Shown one piece after another: positions 7,220 through 45,985 of a stretch of DNA of 64,000 bases; position 1 is the stretch's first letter; every line of letters starts with the position of its first letter. This DNA comes from Dicyema japonicum (Eukaryota > Dicyemida > Rhombozoa > Dicyemidae): positions 910,181 through 974,180 of the forward strand of contig RDEW01000013.1 in the NCBI GenBank assembly GCA_011109175.1. Reading direction: 5' to 3'. The position numbers and the translations under genes were made by a program. The notes beneath the pieces were generated by a model, which searched no databases, was not told the origin of the DNA, and saw only the letters and a program-made list of their open reading frames with translations.

Positions 7220-7320
7220 GAGATAAATGCATATTAATCATATTCTCATGAATGGAGATAATGCATATTAATCATATTCTCATGAATGGAGATAAATGCA
7301 TATTGATCTTATTCTCATTA
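7220..7320. repeat. three-copy ~35-bp tandem repeat
   Basis: The unit with core GATAAATGCATATTAATCAT and TATTCTCATGAATGG is repeated nearly perfectly about three times. It lies 0.6 kb upstream of the first repeat-protein gene. Confidence 0.85.
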
Positions 7321-7952
7321 TGAGGTTGTGATTTATTTTAGGCATGCTATTGGAGCATTTGCTGAATATAAATTGATAAAACGTTCAGGAATTATTGACT
7401 AAATATCTACAGGAGGTGGGGTATGTCTCACACGAATCAAGAGCTATATTTGACCCGCATGTGCAGCAAAAAAATAAGAGAGTCAGCTTCTTCATGCTTT
7501 TAGGTTTAGAAATTAAAGTTAGGCAGCTTGAATGGCATGCTGTTTCCTGACGATAGCTATCGAGACACGCTCTCGAAGGCATCCAGTCCTCACGTGAATC
7601 CTTAGTGACTCTATGGATCAATAGTCGATCCAACGGACTAGAGGTTAGTTTGTGGGCCAACTCTAATTAGAAATAATGACTGATCCGAGGGATTAAATTT
7701 ATTTTAATAAGTTTTACTATTGGAAGTAAGAAAAAATCAGTGCTCCTCAGTTAACACAAAATCCAGTGAAACCTACACTGCTTATTTATGATTTACGACT
7801 CCTGGAAGATCTATTAAGGCTAAGGTGAACCTGAATGATTAAAATAGAGTTATTCAGCATTTCTAAATGATATTATGGGATTAGAGTAATACACGGATTT
7901 TATAATGCGCGAATGAAGTAGTATTTAAATTAATCGAGAAATTATCGTTAGA

Positions 7953-9631
7953 ATGGCAATGGCTTGTTTCCTTTTGTTTTTTATAATAAACTTCGGTAAT
8001 TTTTTTTGTAACTAGATATTGGATTTGGATTTTCAATGGGGGTATCCACATGAAATAATAAAATTTTAGTTTCCTAACCCAAATTCTGCTCAAAGTAAAT
8101 TTTGTTAAATACCTTTAGATCAAAATGGAGGAATCGGCGGTATTTCAATGAATATTAAATTTTAAAGGTCCTAACATCCATAATGGCCCACGTAAACTTA
8201 ATTATTTTATTTTTAGAATCCAGCGGAGGATCCAGTGGTATTTCAATGAATTTTAAATTTTAAAGGTCCTAACATCCATAATGGCCCACGTAAACTTTAT
8301 TATTTTATTTTTAGAATCCAGCGGAGGATCCAGTGGTATTTCAATGAATTTTACATTTTAAAGGTCCTAACATCCATAATGGCCCACGTAAACTTAATTA
8401 TTTTATTTTTAGAATCCAGCGGAGGATCCAGTGGTATTTCATTGAATTTTAAATTTTAAAGGTGCTAACATCCATAATGGCCCACGTAAACTTAATTATT
8501 TTATTTTTAGAATCCAGCGGAGGATCCAGTGGTATTTCAATGAATTTTAAATTTTAAAGGTCCTAACATCCATAATGGCCCACGTAAACTTAATTATTTT
8601 ATTTTTAGAATCCAACGGAGGATCCAGTGGTATTTCAATGAATTTTAAATTTTAAAGGTGCTAACATCCAAAATGGCCCACGTAAACTTAATTATTTTAT
8701 TTTTAGAATCCAGCGGAGGATCCAGTGGTATTTCAGTGAATATTAAATTTTAAAGGTGCTAACATCCAAAATAACCCACGTAAACTTAATTATATTATTT
8801 TTAGATTCCAGCGAAGGATCCATTGGTACTTCAATAAATATAAATTTTTAGGAGGATTTACGGTATTTCCGCATCAAACAATAAATATTTAGACTACTGG
8901 AACTACCCAGGCTAGAAGCAGCCGAACCACCCAACGTAAATTAATTAAATAATCTTTTTAGGAACCAGCAGAACATCCGGTTGTATTCTATGAATATTAA
9001 ATTTTAGGACAATATACGGTATTAAAGCATCAAAAAATAAATATTTAGACTGCAATTACCCAAGGTACTACCAACCAAGCCACCCAATGTAAACTTAATT
9101 AAATAATTTTTAGCTGCAGAATACAGTGGTATTTCTATGCATATTACATTTCAAAGGTAGTACTTACATACCTCCCCCGCGTAAGCATAATTAAATAATT
9201 TTTAGCTCCAGGATACGGTGGTATTTCCATGCATATTAAATTTTAAAGGTGGTCATGGGTCAGGTCCTTCAAGTAAGCCTAATTCAATAATTTTTAGATT
9301 ATGGTGTAACAGCAAGTAGTTTTTTATGAATTTTATTTTTTAGAATCTAAAAATCCATTTTCATTTATGCGTTCTGATTTATCAGGTTTTATTATTATTT
9401 TTTTAATTCCACTAAATTATAAGCCTGTAATCATTAGATCCTGATAATGATGAAAAAAATCCAAAAAATTGGAAATCTCTGATTTTTAGTAATTTTGTGT
9501 CCAAATTAGATAATTTTAATTATGGTTTAGTATCTTGTATCATCGGTGTGGTGGTTCTACCAGTCTACTTGAATTACAGAAAATTTAATAAAGAAACAAA
9601 AAAATCAGAATCGAAACCTGGAAATAAGTAA
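7953..9631 (+). CDS. gene 1: mini-intron repeat protein with signal peptide and C-terminal membrane anchor
   Basis: Thirty exons and 29 GT-AG introns are inferred, nearly all 20-31 nt. Exon sizes are 43, 26, 25; then eight 21-nt exons alternating with seven 24-nt exons (first 8119-8139 and 8168-8191); then 11, 43, 18, 11, 40, 15, 24, 15, 24, 18, 42, 194. They sum to 885 nt, a single 294-aa frame. The protein starts MAMACFLLFFIINF (signal peptide), has a GFP/NPNSAQ linker and near-identical 15-residue repeats SSGGSSGPNIHNGPQ, then a Thr/Gln/Ser-rich stretch and GYG/GHG segments. It ends in NPKNWKSL, one membrane segment (GLVSCIIGVVVLPVYL) and a lysine-rich tail. The last intron is 52 nt (9386-9437). 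AATAAA lies at 9637, just after the stop. A surface, mucin-like role is inference. I know no named family. Confidence 0.8.
8119..8825 (+). repeat. 98-bp tandem array of exon-intron-exon-intron units
   Basis: The period is exactly 98 bp: unit starts at 8119, 8217, 8315, 8413, 8511, 8609, 8707 and 8805. Each unit is a 21-nt exon, 28-nt intron beginning GTATTT and ending TTAAAG, 24-nt exon, and 25-nt intron beginning GTAAAC and ending TTTTTAG. The exons total 45 nt, so every duplication adds 15 in-frame residues. The intron sequences are as conserved as the exons, implying recent copy-number change or homogenisation of the whole genomic unit. Confidence 0.85.
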
Positions 9632-13560: not shown

Positions 13561-13995
13561 AAACAGACAAAAACAGAAAACTTTAAAAAATTAGCCACGA
13601 AGAAAAAGGGAAGAAGAGAAAAATCAAAAAGTGGATAAAAATCACAACGTTATGTCATAATATCGACAATCAGCCAATTACAAGTGGGTAACTAGAATGT
13701 ACAAAAATGTAATGAGATTAATATAATTCAAATAAGCCATACGTAATAGAATTAAAAAAGGTGCAAAAAAAAACGAGTGGAATTACAAAAATGAGTTAAG
13801 ATAAATGATTCTTAGGAACAACAATCAAGAAAATAGAATGATAAAAAATCGAAAAATAGGATAGTAAGGTAATGGTAAAAAGAAAAAAAATCAGCACATA
13901 GTATTTATAGAATTAATGTAAGATGCGGATATTATAATGCGAAATAGCATATAAGTATGAAACAAAAACGAAAAAATAAAAAAAGATAAATTATA

Positions 13996-16900
13996 ATGAA
14001 AGTGGGCATCTACATAATTATATTCTTGATAAACATGGGTAATGTTGAGATAAGACTTAGAAATCGGATATGGATTTCCTTCAAATGTATTTAGAGAAAT
14101 AATAAATGTATAGATTAATGGAATGGGTGGTCATGGAATGCTACAGAATGCACAAAGTATAACTTAAAGATAATCTTTAGATGGATTTGGAAATGGTAGA
14201 ATTTTGAGAGAATTATTTTTTAGGAGGATCAACGGTAATTTAAAAAATAAAAACATAGACGAGTACACATGTCCAAACTACTCCACCTAACGCTGGACAA
14301 AGTAAATCTTAAACATAATTTATAGATGGGGGAGGAAATGGTAGAATTATTAGAGAATTATTTTTAGGAGGATCAACGGTAATTTAAAAAATAAAAACAT
14401 AGACGAGTACACATGGCCAAACTACTCCAACTAACGCTGGACAAAGTAAATCTTAAACATAATTTATAGATGGGGGAGGGAATGGTAGAATTTTTAGAGA
14501 ATTATTTTTTAGGAGGATCAACGGTAATTTAAAAAATAAAACATAGACGAGTACACATGGCCAAACTACTCCAACTAACGCTGGACAAAGTATATCTTAA
14601 ACATAATTTATAGATGGGGGAGGAAATGGTAGAATTATTAAAAAATTATTTTTTAGGAGGATCAACGGTAATTTAAAAAATAAAAACATAGACGAGTACA
14701 CATGGCCAAACTACTCCCCCTAACTCTGGACAAAGTATATCTTAAAACATAATTCTTAGATGGGAGGAAATGGTAGAATTTTAGAGAATTATTTTTTAGG
14801 AGGATCAACGGTAATTTAAAAATAAAAACATAGACGAGTACACATGCCAAACTACTCCTTAACGCTGGACAAAGTATATTTTAAAATAATTTATAGATGG
14901 AGGAAATGGTAGAATTTGAAGAATTATTTTTTAGGAGGATCAACGGTAATTTAAAAATAAAAAACATAGACGAGTACATGGCCAAACTACTCCCTAACTC
15001 TGGACAAAGTAATATCTTAAAATAATTCTTAGATGGATTTGGAAATGGTAGAATTTTAGAAATTATTTTTTAGAGGATCAACGGTAATTTTAAAAAAAAA
15101 ACATAGACGAGTACGCATGGCCAAAAACTACTCCCTTTAACTCTGGACAAGTATATCTTAAAAATAATTTTAGATGGATTTGGAAATGGTAGAATTTTGA
15201 AGAATTATTTTTTAGGAGGATCAACGGTAATTTAAAAAATAAAAATATAGACGAGTACTCAGGGCCAATCTACTTCCTTTAACTCTGGACAAAGTATATC
15301 TTAAAATTAATTCTTAGATGGGGACATGGTAGAATTTTGAAAAATTATTTTTTAGGAGGATCAACGGTAATTTAAAAAAATAAACATAGACGAGTACGCA
15401 TGGCCAAACTACTCCTTTAACTCTGGACAAAGTATATTTAAAAATAATTTTTAGATGGAGGAAATGGTAGAATTTTGAGAATTATCTTTTAGGAGGATCA
15501 ACGGTAATTTAAAATAAAAACATAGACGAGTACGCAGGCCAAACTACTCCCTTTAACTCTGGACAAAGTATATTAAAAATAATTCTTAGATGGATTTGGA
15601 AATGGTAGAATTTTGGAGAATTATTTTTTAGGAGGATCAACGGTAATTTAAAAAAAAAACATAGACGAGTACGCAGGGCCAAACTACTCCCTTTAACTCT
15701 GGACAAAGTATATTTAAAAATAATTCTTAGATGGATTTGGAAATGGTAGAATTTTGAAAATTAATTTTTTAGGAGGATCAACGGTAATTTAAAAAATAAA
15801 ACATAGACGAGTACGCAGGGCCAAACTACTCCCTTTAACTCTGGACAAAGTATATTTAAAAATAATTCTTAGATGGATTTGGAAATGGTAGAATTTTGAA
15901 AAATTATTTTTTAGGAGGATCAACGGTAATTTAAAAATAAAAAACGAGTACGAGCAGGCCAAACTACTCCCTTTAACTCTGGACAAAGTATATTTAAAAA
16001 AATTCTTAGATGGATTTGGAAATGGTAGAATTTTGAAAAATTATTTTTTAGGAGGATCAACGGTAATTTAAAAATAAAAACATAGACGAGTACTCAGGGC
16101 CAATCTACTCCCTTTAACACTGGACAAAGTATATCTTAAAAATAAATCTTAGATCCATTTGTACATGGTAGAATTTTGAAAGAATTATTTTTTAGGAGGA
16201 TCAACGGTAATTTAAAAAATAAAACATAGACGAGTACTCAGGGCCAATCTACTTCGTTTAACTCTGGACAAAGTATATCTTAAAAATAATTTTAGATGAA
16301 TTTGGAAATGGTAGAATTTTGAAAGAATTATTTTTTAGAAGGATCAACGGTAATTTAAAAAATAAAAATAGACGAGTACGCAGGGCCAAACTACTCCTTT
16401 AACTCTGCACAAAGTATATTTTAAAAATAATTCTTAGATCAATTTGGACATGGTAGAATTTTGATAAAATTATCTTTTAGTAGAATCAACGGTAATTTAA
16501 AATAAACACATAGACGAGTACGCAAGGCCAAACTACTCCCTTTAACTCTGCACACAGTATATTTAAAAAATTCTTAGATCCATTTGGACATGGTAGAATT
16601 TTGAAAAATTATTTTTTAGGAGATCAACGGTAATTTAAAAAATAAAAAATAGACGAGTACGCAGGCCAAACTACTCCCTTTAACTCTGCACAGTATATTT
16701 AAAAATAATTTTTAGATCCATTTGGACATGGTAGAATTTTGAAAATTATTTTTAGGAGGATCAACGGTAATTTAAAAAATAAAAATAGACGAGTACGCAG
16801 GCCAAACTACTCCCTTTAACTCTGCAAAAGTATATTTAAAAATAATTCTTAGATCCATTCGGACTGGTAGAATTTTGAAAAATTATCTTTTAGGAGAATC

Positions 16901-18303
16901 AACGGTAATTTAAAAAATAAATAGACGAGTACGCATGGCCAAACTACTCCCTTTAACTCTGGACAAAGTATATTTAAAAATATTCTTAGATGGATTTGAA
17001 TGGTAGAATTTTAAAAATTATTTTTTAGGAGGATCAACGGTAATTTAAAAAATAAAACATAGACGAGTACTCAGGGCCAAACTACTCCCTTTAACACTGG
17101 ACAAAGTATATCTTAAAAATAATTTTAGATATTTGGAATGGTAGAATTTTGAGAAATTATTTTTTAGGAGGATCAACGGTAATTTAAAAAATAAAAACAT
17201 AGACGAGTACTCAGGGCCAAACAACTCCTTTAACTCTGGACAAAGTATACTTAAAATAATTTTAGATCCATTTGGACAATGGTAGAATTTTTGAGAAAAT
17301 TATTTTTAGAAGGATCAACGGTAATTTAAAAAATAAAAACATAGACGAGTACTCAGGGCCAAACTCTTCTCTTTAACTCTGCACAAAGTATATCTTAAAA
17401 ATAATTTTTAGATGGATTTGGACTTGGTAGAATTTTTGAGATAATTATTTTTTAGGAGGATCAACGGTAATTTAAAAAATAAAAAAATAGACAAGTACTC
17501 ATGACCAAACTACTCTTTTTTACTCTGGACAAAGTATAATTTAAAAATTATTTTTAGATGGATTTGGAAATGGTACTTTTTTGAAATAATTATTTTTAGG
17601 TGGAACAACGGTTATTTAAAAAATAAAAACATAGACGAGTAAACATGGCCAAACTCCTCCGCCAAACGCTGCATCAAGTATTCATTAGATTTTATTTTTA
17701 GATGAAGGAGGACATGGTATAATTTTTTCAACAATTAATTTTAGATAGTATCACTGTATTTCCTTCTTATAATTATAATAAATATTTAGACTGTCTTATA
17801 TTCATCAACTGGAACTCATCATACGACCAAAGTTTTTATTTTATAACATAAATTAGATTCTGTTTCAACATCATGTAATATTTTAAATTTTAAATTCTTT
17901 TTTTAGACGGATCTTCTGTATTTTTTTATTTTTCATTTATTTAGACTAATGGAAAATTTTCAGATTTTTATAACCCTTTTGCCCAAAGTAGATTTTTTCA
18001 AATTATTTATTAGATTCAGCTAAGGGATCATCTAGTATTCTGAATTAAAATTTTTTAGGTCCATCGATTAATCTAGATTCTACTCTTTCTGGTTTATTTA
18101 TTATTTTTTAATTTTTCTAAATTCAATGTTGTTTATCAATAGTTACTCCATATAATGGATTCATTCCACAAAATTGGAAAGAATATTTTTATAGTAATCT
18201 TTATCAACTAAACATAGATCACTTCAATTCTGTTTTGGTTCTTTTTATTTTATGTACCCTGGTTTTGACTATCTATCGAAACAATACCCGAAGTAAACGA
18301 TAG
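13996..18303 (+). CDS. gene 2: giant mini-intron repeat protein, paralogue of gene 1
   Basis: Exon 1 (13996-14038, 43 nt) encodes MKVGIYIIIFLINM, a signal peptide; exon 2 (14061-14086) is 26 nt; both sizes equal those of gene 1. From 14181 about 27 units follow, each with three exons of 15, 11 and 43 nt and three introns of about 28, 24 and 24 nt. The exons sum to 69 nt and give the repeat GGSTTSTHGQTTPTNAGQNG plus GGN. Late units drift to TQGQTTPFNSGQ. The end has a 33-nt exon, a 51-nt intron (18092-18142) and a 161-nt exon encoding IPQNWKEYFYSNL, one membrane segment (VLVLFILCTLVLTIY) and TRSKR. Units from about 14760 on contain 1-4-nt exon indels, and one 3' exon (17791-17832) is 42 instead of 43 nt. 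This sequence therefore does not give one open frame: pseudogene or consensus errors. Confidence 0.65.
14181..17920 (+). repeat. ~140-bp tandem array of three-exon, three-intron units (about 27 copies)
   Basis: The landmark 11-nt exon GAGGATCAACG or a close variant recurs at 14224, 14368, 14513, 14657, 14800, 14935 and onward to 17456, with diverged forms at 17600, 17745 and 17907. Each is preceded by TTTTTTAG and followed by GTAATTTAAAAAATAA...ATAG. Unit length is about 144 bp early and 118-140 bp later, where deletions accumulate. Early units have Thr-His-Gly / Asn-Ala-Gly exons and later ones Thr-Gln-Gly / Asn-Ser-Gly exons, so the array expanded in at least two waves. Confidence 0.85.
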
Positions 18304-36693: not shown

Positions 36694-37990
36694 TTAGTTA
36701 AGAGCTCTTTCGCGTGGCCCTAAAAGGGGTTCGCTTGAGCCATGTTTTGCAGCCATCCTCCTCGCCCACGCCATCTTGTTCCTGACCCTCATTCGAACAT
36801 CATCCAGATCGTCCGGTGTCATCAATTTACGACTGTTTTGTTTGTAGTCATCTTTTAAGCAGGTTGGAAGTGTGTTTCTTGGTCTGCCTCGAAATCCGCG
36901 ACTTCTGGCGTAGTAGAAATATTCTTCCATTATTCTGTTACTTGGCGTAGTCGGGTCCAGTCTGAGGATATGTCCAAATAGTCGCCATCTCGATAAAATA
37001 ACATCGGTGCTGAGTGGTCTGGATTTACATCGTGAATATAGATTTTCATTTGAGATTTTTCTCGGCCAAAAAATTCCAATCAACATGCGGAGTTGGCTCC
37101 TGTGAAAAGTATCTAGCTTCTCTAAATCAATTTTAGAACATGCCCATGTTCCAGTATTGTATAGCAAAATTGGTTTAACAAACGTGTCGTATAGTCTGAC
37201 ACGAAGTTTCTGTGATACATCTTTTTTCCTTATCCAAATTAGGTACATTTTTTGAAATATATGGTAGCCAGCATTTTCCTTCGACAAATATCCTCAGCAT
37301 CACCTAGCAGTGAGCCGAGTTTTTTGGTATGTCTCCAGCACTCATCGTTCTTTGATTCTGCTCGTTCGACTCGTGTATATTCAGTTTTTTTAATGTTTAT
37401 GCGCAAATCCCAATTCTTAAAAATACGTTCGGCTTGAAGTAAAATTTGGTCAAGTATTTCTTGGTCGGTAGACACAAAGTCTACATCATCCGGATAAATT
37501 AACTCTGTTATGTCCCAGTATTTAGGACCCATGACATTTCTCAATTCCTTGAGCGCAGCTTCGAGGTAAACAATAAATATAATTGGGGACAAAGAATCTC
37601 CTTGTGGAGTGCCCATGTTGGTACTGAAACACTTCGAATGCTTTGTTCCTATTCTCACGGATAGGTCAGTTTCGGAAAGTAATAAACTTATTAGTCTCAG
37701 GCAGTCCTCGTCAAGCAGTTCCTTTAGAACAATCATGAGTTTTTCTCTATTGATGCTGTTAAAAGCCTTCGTTAGATCAATTCCTAGGATGTAGATTACT
37801 TTCGTGTATTTTTGACATATTGATGTGAGCCATCGATGACTCCATACAATATCTGAGGTTGATCTTCCACTTCTAGACCCACTTTGACTTAGGGAAAGGT
37901 ATTTTTCCACTGGCTCTCGTATACGGTTAAGCACTATGATCGATAAGGTTTTCCTGCATCCTTTGATATTGGAACGGACAAACAAATCGA
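36694..37990 (-). mobile_element. RTE-like LINE, reverse transcriptase to 3' domain
   Basis: Two overlapping frames (37985-37239 and 37287-36694) encode YILGIDLTKAFNSINREKLM, NMGTPQGDSLSPIIFIVYLE, LIYPDDVDFVS (YADD changed to YPDD), KKLGSLLGDAEDICRRK, FVKPILLYNTGTW, SRWRLFGHILRLDPTTPSNR and FRGRPRNTLPTCLKDD. One frameshift near 37260 and loss of the canonical alanine in the catalytic box make it inactive. The endonuclease is missing (5' truncation). Confidence 0.9.
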
Positions 37991-38419
37991 TGTCCTCCTG
38001 TAAGAGGTCCTCTAAATATCATTTTAACGACATTGATACAAGAAAGCGGGGATAATTACTGCTATCGCTATTTATGACCACGTGGCCCACTTCAAGAACG
38101 GTGAAAATTTAATGTATCCTGCAAAGTATCACAAATATAAACACTTGTGAGTTGCAAGCAAGAGTTAATGTTGCATACATCAGATTGTCCACTACATATG
38201 TAACGAACATGCCATATATGCATGAATGTAGACTAATATAATCAGATTTGAAAACCTTGATTAATTACATCAACAATCAAAGCGGATAGAACATCAACTC
38301 AGAAAATTCTTATAGCCCACTAAAACACCCACGTTTAATACCATTAATTATTTAAATATTTAAATATTTTTTATCAAAAACAACTAACAATTTTTATTAA
38401 TGGTTTTATTAATGAAAAT

Positions 38420-39470
38420 GGTCAATAATGGAAGTTGGATGAATTGTCGGTTAGGATAATCAGACTACTACTTGCGAATACAAGACTATCTTTGAGGACA
38501 GAAGGAGCAACTTCCCACAATTTCAAAACAACGATTGGGACACCCCAGGGTGATTCCCTCTCCCCTTTACTATTCACCATATACCTTGAATCTGCACTCC
38601 GCGACCTCCGTAAATTCTATATAGGAGACATAGAAGAGACATCTTATGCGGATGATGTGGATTTCGTATCACGGGACGTGACCGCACTCTAACACCTACT
38701 AGAAAATGCACCTGCGGAGCTTGAGAAATGGTTTCTCAGCGTAAATGTAAACAAAACTGAAATTACGGAAATCAAAAGAGAAGACGATATTACTCATGAA
38801 AGATGGAGACGTACTAATAAGCTCGGCTCTCTACTAGGAGACGCTGAAGATGTACTAAGGAGGAAAACACTGGCAAATGCGGCAATGGCTAAACTGAAGA
38901 AAGGATGGCTAAGAGCCAAAGGACTTGGAATTGACATCAGATGCAGGCTTTACAACGCGTTTGTGAAACCGATCCTACTGTACAACGCTGGGACATGGGG
39001 AAGTTCCTTCAACGAACTATTGAAACTGGATTCGTTCCATAGAAGGCAACTAAGAAGCTTACTCGGAATGGAGTGGCCACGTAGAATATCAACCACTGGT
39101 ATCTACAACAAGTGTATGTGTTCGTACATCAGCAAGGATGTGATAGATGCCCGGTGGAGGCTATTTGGGCATGTACTAAGAATGAACCCGGACGCACCCG
39201 CTAACAAAGCGATGGAAGATTACTTTGACAGTTGCGACAAACCCTTCCGCGGACGACCTAGATCGACACTTCCGACTGCCTTAAACAAAGACTTAAATCG
39301 TGTGAGAAAAAATCTAAAGACGGGGGACGACCTGGACGAATTGAGATCACTCGCATTCGACAGAGGAAGATGGAAAAGACTAACTATAAATATTGTTTCT
39401 TTGAGTGTTGCACATGCGGGGCTATAATCATTATGGCTTTCGTGAAAGTGCCTTAATAATAATAATGGAA
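38420..39470 (+). mobile_element. RTE-like LINE, 5'-truncated, nearly open copy with intact YADD
   Basis: The frame runs from VRIIRLLLANTRLSLRTEG through TIGTPQGDSLSPLLFTIYLE and ETSYADDVDFVSRD to a single TAA (38690-38692). It then continues open through LGSLLGDAEDVLRRK, FVKPILLYNAGTWGSS, ARWRLFGHVLRMNPDAPANK, FRGRPRSTLPTALNKDLNR and DDLDELRSLAFDRGRWKRLT to a stop at 39425. The 3' end has GGGGCTATAATCATTATGGC TTTCGTGAAAG and TTAATAATAATAAT. It is the least decayed RTE-like copy and provides the reference 3' tail. Confidence 0.9.
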
Positions 39471-40165: not shown

Positions 40166-41990
40166 AACCGACCGAAATTACTCTCGGGTCCAACCTCAGG
40201 ACGTATCCAAAAAGTCTCCAACGAGAGCTAATGATCTCGTGACTTAATGGTGTACAGTCACACTTATTGTACAGTCCATTCCAGTTATGCTTCTTAGATG
40301 ATTCCTGTGAAACGAGTCTAGCTTCTCCAATTCCTCTTTTAAGGTGACCCAGGTCCCAGAGTTGTATAGTAGGATTGGTTTGATAAAGGTGTCGTATAAC
40401 ATTATCCTTTGTTTTACGTTATTCCTTTTCCGTTTTAGCCATAGGTCTTTCAGCCCGTGTAATGCCGCGTTTACCATAGTTTTTCTCCGTATGATATCTT
40501 CAATATCTCCTAATTGGGAGCCAAATTTCTTTGTATGTCTACATTTCTCTTCGAGTAGGTTATTCATTCGTCCTATTTCTGTCCGTTCTGTTTTTTTCTG
40601 TTCACGGTGAGAAACCCTTTCCCAATTATATCTGGTGCTTTTTCTAGTATATGTTCCAGGAGTTTTTTGTCTTCAGAGATTAGGTCGACATCATCAGCAT
40701 AAATCACTTCTTCTATTTTTTCATTGGTATAATGGTCTCAGTTCCCTCATAGCGGCCTCCAAGTATATTGTGAATAGTAACGGAGAGAGGGAGTCTCCTT
40801 GAGGAGTGCCTGTGTTTGTTTCAAATTTTCTTGAGTAGGTTTTTCCAACTCTCACAAGGAGTTCTGTTTTAAATATAAGAATTTGGAACATTCTTAGACT
40901 CGATTCGTCAATAAACCCTTCCAGCACTGTCATCAATTTGTTCCTGTTAACTTTTGATAGATCTATTCCCCAGAATTTGGGTGACATTGCAATATCTTTG
41001 ATGTGTTGCACATCTTCATCTGTGACTCCAGACTGCATCAGCTGTTGATTTCCCTTCTCTGAACCCACTTTGACTTCGGGTAGTCATAGGCGGGTCCTTT
41101 TATTCGTTCCAATACAATGTTAGCTAAGACTTTTTGCAGAGAATTTGTTTCCGTTGCGTGTCCATTTCGTGTATTCTCATTATTATTGTTTGTAGTGTTG
41201 TTATGTTTCTTATGTTTGATACCATGTTTCAATAGCCATTCTGTGATCGCTGACAGTTGTTGAACCTTCGTATGAGCGTGCGTTTTTAAGAGAGCGTTTG
41301 TCATTGATCCGGCATATAATGTAATCAATTTGGTTGTATATAGGGACTAGTTTTCCATCTGGGTTTCTTCGTTCGCCCTTCCAAGTGGTTATGTGGCATG
41401 CACGATGAGAGAATGCGGTGTTGCACAAGAACAGTTTGTTTGCCGTGCAGAAATGGCCAAGTATGGTCCCAGGCAAGTTTCTTTTCCCACGTCCGTGTCT
41501 TCCCATGAAGGTATCTTTTGAGTTTTTTTTGTTCCGATTTTCGCATTCAGATCGCAGCAATGAATATAAGTGAGGACGACTCGTATTCATTATACGTTTT
41601 TGATAATGCTGAGTAAAATTCATCCAGCTCAGCCGGGTTTTTTGCAACTCTTCCACAGTGTGGCGCATATACATTTATAATTGTTAGTGTATTTTTAGGG
41701 GAACACTGGTTGTTCAGATAGATCTGTATTACGCAGATCCTGTCATTCACCCGCCAAGTGCGACTGATGTCGGCTGATAGTTTTCTGTTAATGGCGAATC
41801 CGAGACCATAGTGTTTTGAGTCACTGGGTAGACATATTAGTCGATATTTTCCATGGTTTTCATCGAGATAGTACGTAATTTTCGTCTCTTGTATACAGCC
41901 AATGGTAACGTTATATCTTTCTAGGTCATCACAGAGTATTTCTTGACTGAGGCTTAGATATTCCTCTAGCATTGAAGGTAAGAAGCTTTA
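40166..41990 (-). mobile_element. RTE-like LINE with endonuclease and reverse transcriptase
   Basis: Endonuclease (41972-41210, two frames): IGCIQETKI, YGLGFAINRKLSADI, VNDRICVIQIYL, TLTIINVYAPHCGRV, DEFYSALSKTYNEY and a terminal VSDHRM, i.e. APE-type motifs. Reverse transcriptase (41068-40244): FWGIDLSKVNRNKLMTVLEG, TNTGTPQGDSLSPLLFTIYL, VIYADDVDLIS, KKFGSQLGDIEDIIRRK and FIKPILLYNSGTW, then RWRLFGYVLRLDPRV. YADD is intact. Several shifts and a replaced segment around 41050-41330 make it inactive. Confidence 0.88.
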
Positions 41991-43029: not shown

Positions 43030-45985
43030 AATTTATTTAAATAAATAAAAAACCCTTTCAATCTTTTTGGTTCTCCCCACCGTCCGGTGTCCTTTCATCT
43101 CCTGTGTCTTCGACCCTGTCTGGTGTCCCCATTTATCCAGACTTTTGATTCTTCTATGTGGAGACGTCGAAACCAATCCTGGTCCATGGATAGGTTTTAC
43201 AATTATACAACTGAATACGAATGGGGTCAGGAAGTAAATCTTTGAACTCCGGGCACTTCTCCGCGAAAATGAGGCTGACCTCGCTTTAATACAGGAGTCC
43301 AAGCTATCTCCCTCCATACCAACACCCTCTTTTCCCGGATACACAGTGATCCGTAAAGATCGTCAGGGAAAACGCGGAGGAGGACTACTTACTATTATAA
43401 AGAACGATTTTCTTTTATGGATACAACTCAACAAACCTCAGAGCTTCTTGGCTCCGACAAGACTTTGGAGCAGATTACTGTCAAAATGGAGTTATTCCCG
43501 TTCTTTTGGATCCATTTAGCTAATTTATATATTCCTCCACAAGGATCGTGTCCGTCATCTTACACCCCTGATTTATCACGCATTTCAACGTTGAAAAATC
43601 TACTGTTATGTGGGGATCTTAATGCACGACATCCAGTTTGGCTCACTTCCCAATTATTTGATAACCGAGGAGAACTCATTGCAAATTATCTTCCTGACCT
43701 GATTATACTGAACAACCCTAACTCACATACGAGAACCCCATTAAGGATGACTGATAGCTGCACATCCCCCGACTTAACACTATGCTCACCTTCTCTGGCT
43801 GGACTCATTTCCTGGAACGTCTTTTACGGCTTCTCCAGTGACCACAATCCAATCCTTCTAAAATTGAGAGGTCTTCGACGATACAGGAGACGGCGGCGAA
43901 ATCAAAAAGATTCAAGGATTATACGAAGGTTGACTGGTCTGGTTTCAGTAACCTTGTGGATAAATTCTTGGCCGGAGATTATCCTCCCAATACGCTCTAT
44001 TGACGAGGCCGCAGAAATTATCAGCGCTGCCATTCAGAAAGCTGACCATATTTTTATTCCTATATCGTCATACAAGAAGTTTATTCCTACCCTCAGCTCT
44101 TATACAATAAGTCTTATAAAACAAAGAGACCGGCTGAAGAGATGCCATCTGTTGGACATGAAGTCTTTGACAGCCCTCAGACAACTGAATAAAAGATCTG
44201 TCAGAGCATAAAAGAACACAAGGACAAGAGATGGCAGCATCTAGTTAACCACCTCGACAGGAAAAGTACATCCCGACATCTTCTGGAAAACTCTTAAACA
44301 AGTCAAGTCGGAGCTGGATGATGCAGACGGAACCGGAAAGTCTTCTCCTGAACACTTATGCCACCTACATCCTAACATCCTTATGAAACATTACGCTGGA
44401 ATTAGCTTCAAACCATTCTCGAAACACCTGGACATTAAGGTGCGTGCCCATAAACCGAAGAAGGAACCTTATCACGAACTATTCACAGATGACCAAGTCT
44501 TGGATGTGATCACCAGATTAAAGAGCTCACGGGCGTGCGGGCCTGACAAAGTATCTTCTATTCACCTAAAACACCTAAGCCACTACGCAATTGGCTACCT
44601 CACGCATATATACAATCTGTCCATTAACTATAATATTATTCCTAAGATTTGGAAGAATTCTATCATCAGACCGATATTGAAGGCTGGGAAACCAGAGACA
44701 GAACCTGCATCCTACAGGCCTATTTCCGTTACCAGCACACTGTCAAAAATTATGGAGAAACTTGTATTATCAGTCATTATTCCGTATCTTCCGCGTCCTA
44801 TATTTCAACATGGTTTCCTCCGCGGTAGGTCCACCGCTACATACTTGGCAACTTTATCGCAGTTCATTGCCGACGGTTTTAACACCCATCCTCCGCCTCA
44901 CAAACGCACAATCTTGGTTTCTATTGACATCAACAAAGCCTTTGACACTGTTTCGAGGAAAATCTTGGTTGGAAAAATATTTTCTACTAATATTCGTCCG
45001 AATGTGAAATTATGGCTGGCCAACTTTTTGTCTGGAAGACGTGGAAGAGTAGTCAGTGGTGATCTCAGATCTAGATCACGATTACTACCGAACGGGGTAC
45101 CCCAGGGGTCTCCACTTTCACCAATTCTATTCAACCTTTTCCTACACGACCTACCTAATGATGGAGACGAAGATTCCCTGTTATTATCCTACGCAGACGA
45201 CGTAGTCATTGCAATACGGAACCGCTCGACGCAAGTCGCATCCCTTAAAACTCAGACAAAATTGAACATTCTCCACGATTGGATTGTGGCAATCGACTTA
45301 ACGATTTCTGCAACCAAGTCTATCTGTTCCACATTCACGTCGGACCGTCGTTCCAAGGATGAACCGAGTCTTTATTGGTCCCACTAGGATTCCAGTGACA
45401 AAGTCCCCCATTGTCCTTGGAGTCAAGTACGACAGCCTTCTCAAATTCAACTCCCACGCAACAGACATGATCACCAGGGGCCTCCAGAAAGTTAACGTTA
45501 TACGCGCCCTTGTTCGGAGGACCACGAGGAACATGGACTTTTCCGTTTCTACACCTACCAACAAACAATCGCGCCTGCCATTGAGTATGCCTCCGTTGCA
45601 TGGAGATTCGGGCTATCGGAGTCTTTGGTCCAAAGAATCAACTCGATATACCGGAAAACAATCAGTATGCTTTCCCACGTAATGGATCAACAGTCGACTC
45701 ACTACTCATGGAAGCTAAGATCCGTAGTCGTGGCTCCGGATTTTTTGGCGTCTGTGAGGAAGATGGAAATCCGCTTCGCCTGATCCTTTCCATGGCAAGA
45801 GAAAACCGATTGGATAAGAAATTCCCCTCCCCGATCGGATTCCTCTGCAAGACCGAGAGAAGGCTCTTCCGGAAAGTAATGGGGACGATGGAGATCACAG
45901 ACGTCGAATGGCACAATGATTGCAAGGACTGGGATCACCTAACTGTATGACTCTTTTGTCTTTCTTTCTCGGTGTTCCAAAAAAA
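43030..45985 (+). mobile_element. Jockey/CR1-like LINE, nearly full length, with 5' 2A-like motif
   Basis: Order: an open leader; RLLILLCGDVETNPGP at 43139-43186 (2A-like D-V-E-x-N-P-G-P); endonuclease starting QLNTNGVRK and RENEADLALIQESKL, with LLCGDLNARHPVW and ISWNVFYGFSSDHNPILLKL (43417-44211); reverse transcriptase at 44383-45387 with SSRACGPDKVSS, ASYRPISVTSTLSKIMEKL, SIDINKAFDTVSRKILVGKI, NGVPQGSPLSPILFNLFLHD and LLSYADDVVIAIRN; a C-terminal part to WDHLTV; 3' end TTTCTTTCTCGGTGTTCC. A stop after NGVRK and shifts near 44215 and 45390 inactivate it. Length about 2.9 kb. Jockey versus CR1 is not settled by eye. Confidence 0.88.
43139..43186 (+). promoter_or_regulatory. 2A-like ribosome-skipping motif in the LINE
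   Basis: CGDVETNPG followed by P fits the 2A consensus D(V/I)ExNPG|P, with the usual leucine-rich run upstream. In viruses and some APE-type non-LTR retrotransposons this peptide makes the ribosome skip the Gly-Pro bond, releasing the upstream peptide from the endonuclease-RT protein. Activity of this copy is inferred. Confidence 0.8.

Follow-up and report, generated by a model that had tools for sequence, protein, structure and literature searches.

The window analysed here, a stretch of 64,000 nt from the genome of the dicyemid Dicyema japonicum, contains a satellite-like tandem array with a unit of 98 bp. TRF finds 7.3 copies of this unit at 8139–8848 with 95% matches and 0 indels, which bears out the array reported in a preliminary description of this DNA. 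Searched against the 64.67-Mb assembly, the 98-bp unit gave 7 matches among the best-scored candidates, every one of them inside this array. The array lies within a putative gene on the plus strand at 7953–9631, gene 1. A 34-bp repeat of 2.9 copies is situated about 630 bp upstream of gene 1 (7220–7318). Unspliced, the locus 7953–9631 contains 34–56 stops per frame in all six frames. The preliminary description had proposed a chain of 30 exons, and this chain was reproduced: it is joined across 29 introns, comprises 885 nt including the stop codon and encodes 294 aa, but it is possibly one intron short. All 29 introns are of the GT-AG type; 28 are 20–30 nt long and one has 52 nt. Retaining any single intron breaks the frame or adds a stop (29 of 29). 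With 29 introns in 882 coding nucleotides the intron density is about 33 per kb. A permissive model of 861 nt was replaced by the phase-consistent 885-nt model, with some introns dropped.

Gene 1 starts with a 43-nt exon (7953–7995) coding for a hydrophobic, signal-like N terminus; this exon also has 43 nt in gene 2 and 43 or 46 nt in gene 3, two paralogs described below. Exon 2 (8016–8041) has 26 nt in each of the three paralogs and carries the motif IGFGF, IGYGF, or IGFG. It is followed by seven 98-bp units (8140–8825), each consisting of a 28-nt intron, a 24-nt exon, a 25-nt intron, and a 21-nt exon, with both exons in phase 1-1. The division of the unit into these four segments had been described before and was confirmed by our sequence parse. 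Each unit accounts for 15 residues (QSSGGSSGPNIHNGP and variants). Downstream of the array there are two units of the kind that makes up gene 2 (8826–9113), with exons of 11 + 43 and 11 + 40 nt, an 18-nt exon in between, and introns of 25–30 nt, and then two diverged 92-bp units (9114–9297) composed of a 15-nt exon, a 28-nt intron, a 24-nt exon, and a 25-nt intron. The C-terminal coding end (9438–9631), comprising a membrane segment and a basic tail, is homologous across the three paralogs. All these features are on the plus strand. Within the exon classes of gene 1 lengths differ by multiples of 3 (21/18/15 nt; 24 nt in 9 of 9 copies; 11 nt in 2 of 2; 43/40/25 nt) and the introns do not, a regularity that is partly built in because the reading frame guided some of the splice-site choices. 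Of the 28 internal exons in the 30-exon model, 22 are of phase 1-1, and their skipping would preserve the frame.

The segment 9489–9509 is a probable 30th intron on the plus strand. It is 21 nt long, has GT-AG borders scoring 8.0 bits, and leaves the frame open whether spliced or retained; the decoder described below called it at all four penalties. The counterpart in gene 2 (18194–18217) has 24 nt and 3.0 bits, and there the frame is also open either way. The counterpart in gene 3 (L012 5828-5849, minus strand) has 22 nt and 10.5 bits, and its removal is required for an open frame. Because this homologous segment must be spliced for gene 3 to stay open, 9489–9509 is probably an intron in gene 1 as well. 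Genes 1 and 2 can be aligned around this segment without a gap if it is spliced and with one gap if it is not; the mean column identity there hardly differs (55% and 54% in the spliced and unspliced alignments). The better count for gene 1 is therefore probably 31 exons, 864 nt, and 287 aa.

In the 294-aa form residues 1–25 are hydrophobic and signal-like, and residues ~254–279 form a membrane segment that is followed by a basic tail. Both hydrophobic segments were located with 19-residue hydropathy windows; the layout that had been proposed for the product, with a signal-like start, a membrane segment, and a basic end, is supported. The stretch between the two segments is rich in Gly, Ser, Asn, Pro, Thr, and Gln (42, 38, 23, 20, 17, and 16 residues, respectively, in positions 24–226). 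The product may be a surface or secreted stalk-like protein, possibly with a mucin-like or glycocalyx-like role. A Pfam scan of gene 1 gave no family at E <= 1, and a protein search with the C-terminal 80 residues of the 294-aa product gave 6 candidates, none of them at E <= 1. As a control, an innexin of this genome was searched in the same protein database and had no match at E <= 0.001 among 1766 candidates. The database thus appears to be poor in such animal proteins, and the null result for gene 1 is mute on its novelty.

The preliminary description treated a single gene, and a larger paralog in the same window had gone unnoticed. This gene 2 (13996–18303, plus strand) begins with first exons of 43 and 26 nt as gene 1 does and has a homologous C-terminal end. 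Its array (14181–17716, plus strand) is made up of some 25 units, roughly 144 bp in length. A typical unit has three introns (18–29 nt as parsed) and exons of 15, 11, and 43 nt. The exonic total of a unit is typically 69 nt, that is, 23 residues. By pattern match 25 units were counted, by an alignment parse 20, and by a regular-expression parse 8. The third paralog, gene 3 (C34:645700-646169, L012 5700-6169, minus strand), has no array. One candidate exon of gene 3, read by hand, runs into a stop, and our models skip this exon. Near gene 3, 21-bp tandem arrays (L012 8126-8300 and 9422-9985) flank a long transposase-like open frame that looks mariner-like by eye.

With gene 1 included there are three paralogs in total, all on one contig, and they contain 0 (gene 3), 7 (gene 1), and about 25 (gene 2) array units. 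The C-terminal segment of gene 1 matches itself, gene 3 (E 1e-4), and, weakly, gene 2 (E 0.01). A fourth match, C53, covers 28 residues at E 0.7 and was not taken as a family member. A pattern derived from the three exon-2 motifs matched those three places only and had 0 control matches; more diverged members could escape it. At either end of the gene the paralogs agree in how long the exons are and in where, and in which phase, the introns lie. At the N terminus the exons are hardly more identical among the paralogs than the introns are, and in one case less so (between genes 2 and 3, 22/43 for exon 1 and 14/22 for intron 1). The N-terminal exon cuts of the paralogs were set by hand; for gene 3 the search had preferred 46 + 19 over 43 + 22 nt, and the second intron of gene 2, 60 nt in an earlier model, was replaced by a hand-set cut.

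The paralogs also have in common an upstream element, GATWTTATAATKCG, which is a candidate promoter. In gene 1 it reads GATTTTATAATGCG and is situated 43 bp 5' of the start codon (7896–7909, plus strand); before gene 2 it reads GATATTATAATGCG (13928–13941, plus strand), and the copy before gene 3 is at C34:646225-646238. A pattern built from these three sequences has 8 matches in the genome and 4 in the control. Three of the 8 precede the paralogs and five are found away from them. With 8 matches against 4 in the control, the element is suggestive only.

Elsewhere in the window, a LINE-like element is located at 43357–45387, with open frames for an endonuclease (PF14529) and a reverse transcriptase (PF00078). 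The long open frames at 36694–38018, 38693–39427, and 40244–41987 look like retroelement remnants by eye; those that were scanned had no Pfam match.

The splice signals of gene 1 were assessed against introns of unrelated genes. Tubulin, innexin, and kinase loci were aligned to open-frame paralogs in the same genome, which was successful for 21 of 28 loci (innexin 12/13, tubulin 8/8, kinase 1/7). From the 56 introns called, 34 were supported on both sides and needed for an open frame. Of these supported introns 26 are 16–30 nt long; the remainder span 44–225 nt, and some of these longer calls may be artefacts. Splice-site weights were trained on 22 introns of 20–30 nt from these unrelated genes. 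The 29 introns of gene 1 score 9.9 bits on average, the training introns 10.4 bits, and 1614 GT-AG pairs elsewhere in the window 5.6 bits. In length as well as in signals the gene 1 introns thus match the usual GT-AG introns of this genome.

These weights were used in a decoder that searches for open exon chains. With a minimum exon length of 9 nt and penalties of 4 and 6, the decoder recovered 26 of the 29 gene 1 introns and called 5 others; under the higher penalties of 7 and 8 it recovered 23 and called 6 others. The 9-nt minimum was chosen after the decoder with zero minimum had skipped the 24-nt exon. At penalty 6 and with the 9-nt minimum an open path was found in 0 of 300 whole-locus shuffles and in 3 of 300 shuffles that keep the tandem structure; the best shuffle scored -2.3 against 115.5 for the real locus, and 0 of the 600 shuffles matched it. 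When the settings were relaxed, an open path was present in 10 of 200 tandem-keeping shuffles, the best of them at 178 against 215 for the real locus.

Without an exon minimum the decoder has only 16–17 of the 29 gene 1 introns in common with the model, and the low overlap arises because the 24-nt exon is skipped. The splice signals by themselves do not impose this exon: skipping it stays in frame and scores higher if zero-length exons are allowed. We considered an alternative in which only the 21-nt exons of the array are coding. The 77 nt in between (28 + 24 + 25) would then be one intron, or would be removed stepwise by way of an AAAG/GT site where the 24-nt segment begins. About half of the repeat exons would be left, or both forms could be made by alternative splicing. 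The 24-nt exon is in phase 1-1, so skipping it leaves the frame intact, and in 9 of 9 copies a GT follows the AG at its start, a possible dual-specific site. In human tandem repeats, for which 792 introns in 262 repeats are reported, such AG/GT dual-specific splicing is 8.4-fold enriched among the introns (PMC10809524), which favours this reading.

On the other hand, the 24-nt segment has kept its length in all nine copies, even in two that match at no more than 10 of 24 positions, and both its ends coincide, or nearly so, with the limits of conserved intron blocks. This is seen in the two diverged units (9114–9205 and 9206–9297), whose introns are identical at 48 of 53 positions, whereas the 24-nt exon is identical at 10/24 and the 15-nt exon at 12/15 (introns versus 24-nt exon, Fisher P = 1.2e-5; introns versus both exons, P = 1.9e-4). 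The conservation breaks off at the right splice site and within ~5 nt of the left one. Compared with the array consensus the same two units have 43/53 and 44/53 identical positions in the introns and 10/24 and 7/24 in the 24-nt exon. In this one pair of diverged units the introns are thus more conserved than the exons, as would be expected of a gene with tandemly duplicated exon–intron units. Finally, the decoder requiring exons of at least 9 nt includes the 24-nt exon in the seven array units, and it skips the copy at 9157–9180 at penalties 7 and 8. We consider this alternative unlikely; that the 24-nt exon is included has support but falls short of proof.

Another alternative is that gene 1 is a decayed gene, formerly spliced and now a satellite-like array without a product. 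The paralogs give some reason to consider this: gene 3 may be damaged and gene 2 is damaged as assembled. In 10 of the 20 parsed units of gene 2 the exons sum to 69 nt, and in the other 10 the exonic sum is not divisible by 3, so that the array is frame-broken and indels block translation through it. The indels are mostly deletions and affect exons and introns alike. Units 1 to 4 are clean, as is the final parsed unit. Predominant deletions that do not discriminate between exons and introns and spare the first four units would, however, also fit an unpolished long-read consensus. The deletions fall into homopolymers in 47 of 79 cases, and 62% of the unit is homopolymer, so there is no enrichment and the unpolished-consensus view of gene 2 is not helped by this comparison; both an unpolished consensus and real decay fit its indels. 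In gene 1 itself the exon chain contains no frame-breaking change and the array is without indels, which speaks against this alternative. Decay of gene 1 is in our opinion improbable, and somewhat more so than coding by the 21-nt exons alone.

The last alternative takes the locus for a non-coding satellite in AT-rich DNA that yields a gene model by chance. It can draw on the abundance of GT and AG pairs in such DNA and on the 10 of 200 tandem-keeping shuffles opened by the permissive decoder, but it is strongly disfavoured since with the 9-nt minimum only 0/300 and 3/300 shuffles open and none comes near the real score, since paralogs exist with homologous ends and matching exon lengths, and since the 98-bp unit occurs at one place only (7 matches among the best-scored candidates).

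We conclude, with a probability of roughly 0.82, that the array forms the main part of a protein-coding gene whose transcript is interrupted by 29 or 30 very short introns of the spliceosomal type and whose product is secreted or spans the membrane once, and that this gene has grown by in-frame duplication of a block. That gene 1 is transcribed and actually spliced is what the sequence leads us to expect. The 98-bp unit is repeated head to tail and in frame, contains whole introns and exons, and runs from phase 1 to phase 1. The duplicated block would consist of two whole introns and two phase-1 exons with 45 exonic nucleotides. Each tandem duplication, by unequal crossing-over or slippage, would then add 15 residues and two introns and keep the frame. 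In gene 2 a three-intron block with 69 exonic nucleotides would have been expanded to about 25 copies, and the third paralog would have remained without an array. Because the block starts and ends in phase 1, unequal crossing-over could add or remove introns two at a time in gene 1 and three at a time in gene 2 with the frame preserved. The proposal that intron number rises here by in-frame tandem duplication had been made for gene 1, and it is supported by the unit counts of the three paralogs (0, 7, and about 25). Two units of the gene 2 kind are present inside gene 1 (8826–9113), which suggests that the three-exon block is the older one.

More tentatively, and at slightly less than even odds, we propose a general view of this three-gene family in which the miniature introns act as satellite DNA. 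The number of unit copies would set the number of introns (29 or 30 in gene 1 and, by extrapolation, some 80 in gene 2), which may vary between individuals. The intron density would be among the highest of any gene, and dozens of introns of 20–30 nt would have to be removed between exons of mostly 11–43 nt. If the number of units does differ among individuals, intron number would be a copy-number polymorphism. Gene 1, in which 11-nt exons lie between introns of 26–30 nt, would be a natural experiment on the tightest packing of introns and exons that the spliceosome can cope with. The family offers a small-scale example of how in-frame tandem duplication multiplies introns, and its paralogs allow comparison. 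It also calls for caution, since in a compact genome an array that is masked as satellite DNA can turn out to be a gene.

The size of the introns is not the surprising part. In the preliminary description spliceosomal introns this short had been called rare, which does not hold here: tiny introns are usual in this genome, as stated above for 26 of the 34 supported reference introns (16–30 nt), and in dicyemids. In published reports dicyemid introns measure 26.2 +/- 1.9 nt (n = 16; PMC2222250), their median is 27 nt compared with 57 nt in the orthonectid Intoshia (PMC6543705), and a mean intron length of 38.2 bp was given for a 67.5-Mb assembly of a genome estimated at ~65 Mb with a GC content of 36.7% (PMC6736024). 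The averages in these sources are about 5–6 introns per gene, whereas gene 1 has 29 or 30 (PMC2222250, PMC6543705, PMC6736024). The present assembly (64.67 Mb in 191 contigs) agrees with published dicyemids in its size and in introns of about 25 nt; innexin genes are present in it (28 matches, and none in 14 control genomes), which points to an animal.

Two further kinds of genes are comparable in some respects. Aphid bicycle genes contain many micro-exons. They are a divergent family of putative effectors and were found via their gene structure, which is a likeness to the present family (PMC9168663). The schistosome MEGs are secreted parasite proteins with mostly very short exons, mostly of lengths that are multiples of 3, but their introns span 0.1–5 kb and the sections of the source that we cite describe no tandem block duplication (PMC10526429). 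In gene 1 the introns have 20–52 nt, outside the range of 0.1–5 kb that goes with the short exons of MEGs, and are as short as the exons.

Tandem amplification of coding units that contain introns, which the preliminary description took to be undescribed, has been described already, for the SmPoMuc mucins and for the MaSp2 silk of Argiope. As duplication of exon–intron units is published, the claim of novelty was too strong. In the open-licence literature we found no example from dicyemids of tandem exon–intron unit duplication, and none with this miniature scale, with a density of about 33 introns per kb, or with a three-intron cycle. A repetitive surface protein has here seemingly been built from copied miniature exon–intron blocks, and silk and fluke mucin genes do likewise at a larger scale. 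Silk genes are far longer than gene 1.

SmPoMuc of Schistosoma mansoni is a parasite repeat protein as well, and in its genes a 27-bp exon is duplicated in tandem together with the flanking intron. The intronic parts are highly alike (>94%) and the exons differ between clusters. The likeness is one of architecture: the SmPoMuc units are about 1 kb long, have one exon each and number at most 20 per gene, whereas the units described here have 98 or 144 bp and contain two or three exons with their introns (PMC2576457). MaSp2 of Argiope and flagelliform silk resemble gene 1 in an alternating core unit of two exons and two introns and in homogenized introns; the authors of the Argiope study state that they know of no other gene in eukaryotes in which two homogenized types of intron alternate (PMC9779670). 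Gene 1 would be an independent alternating case, and gene 2 has a three-intron cycle. Against this background it is only the miniature scale and the density of the gene 1 case that look unusual.
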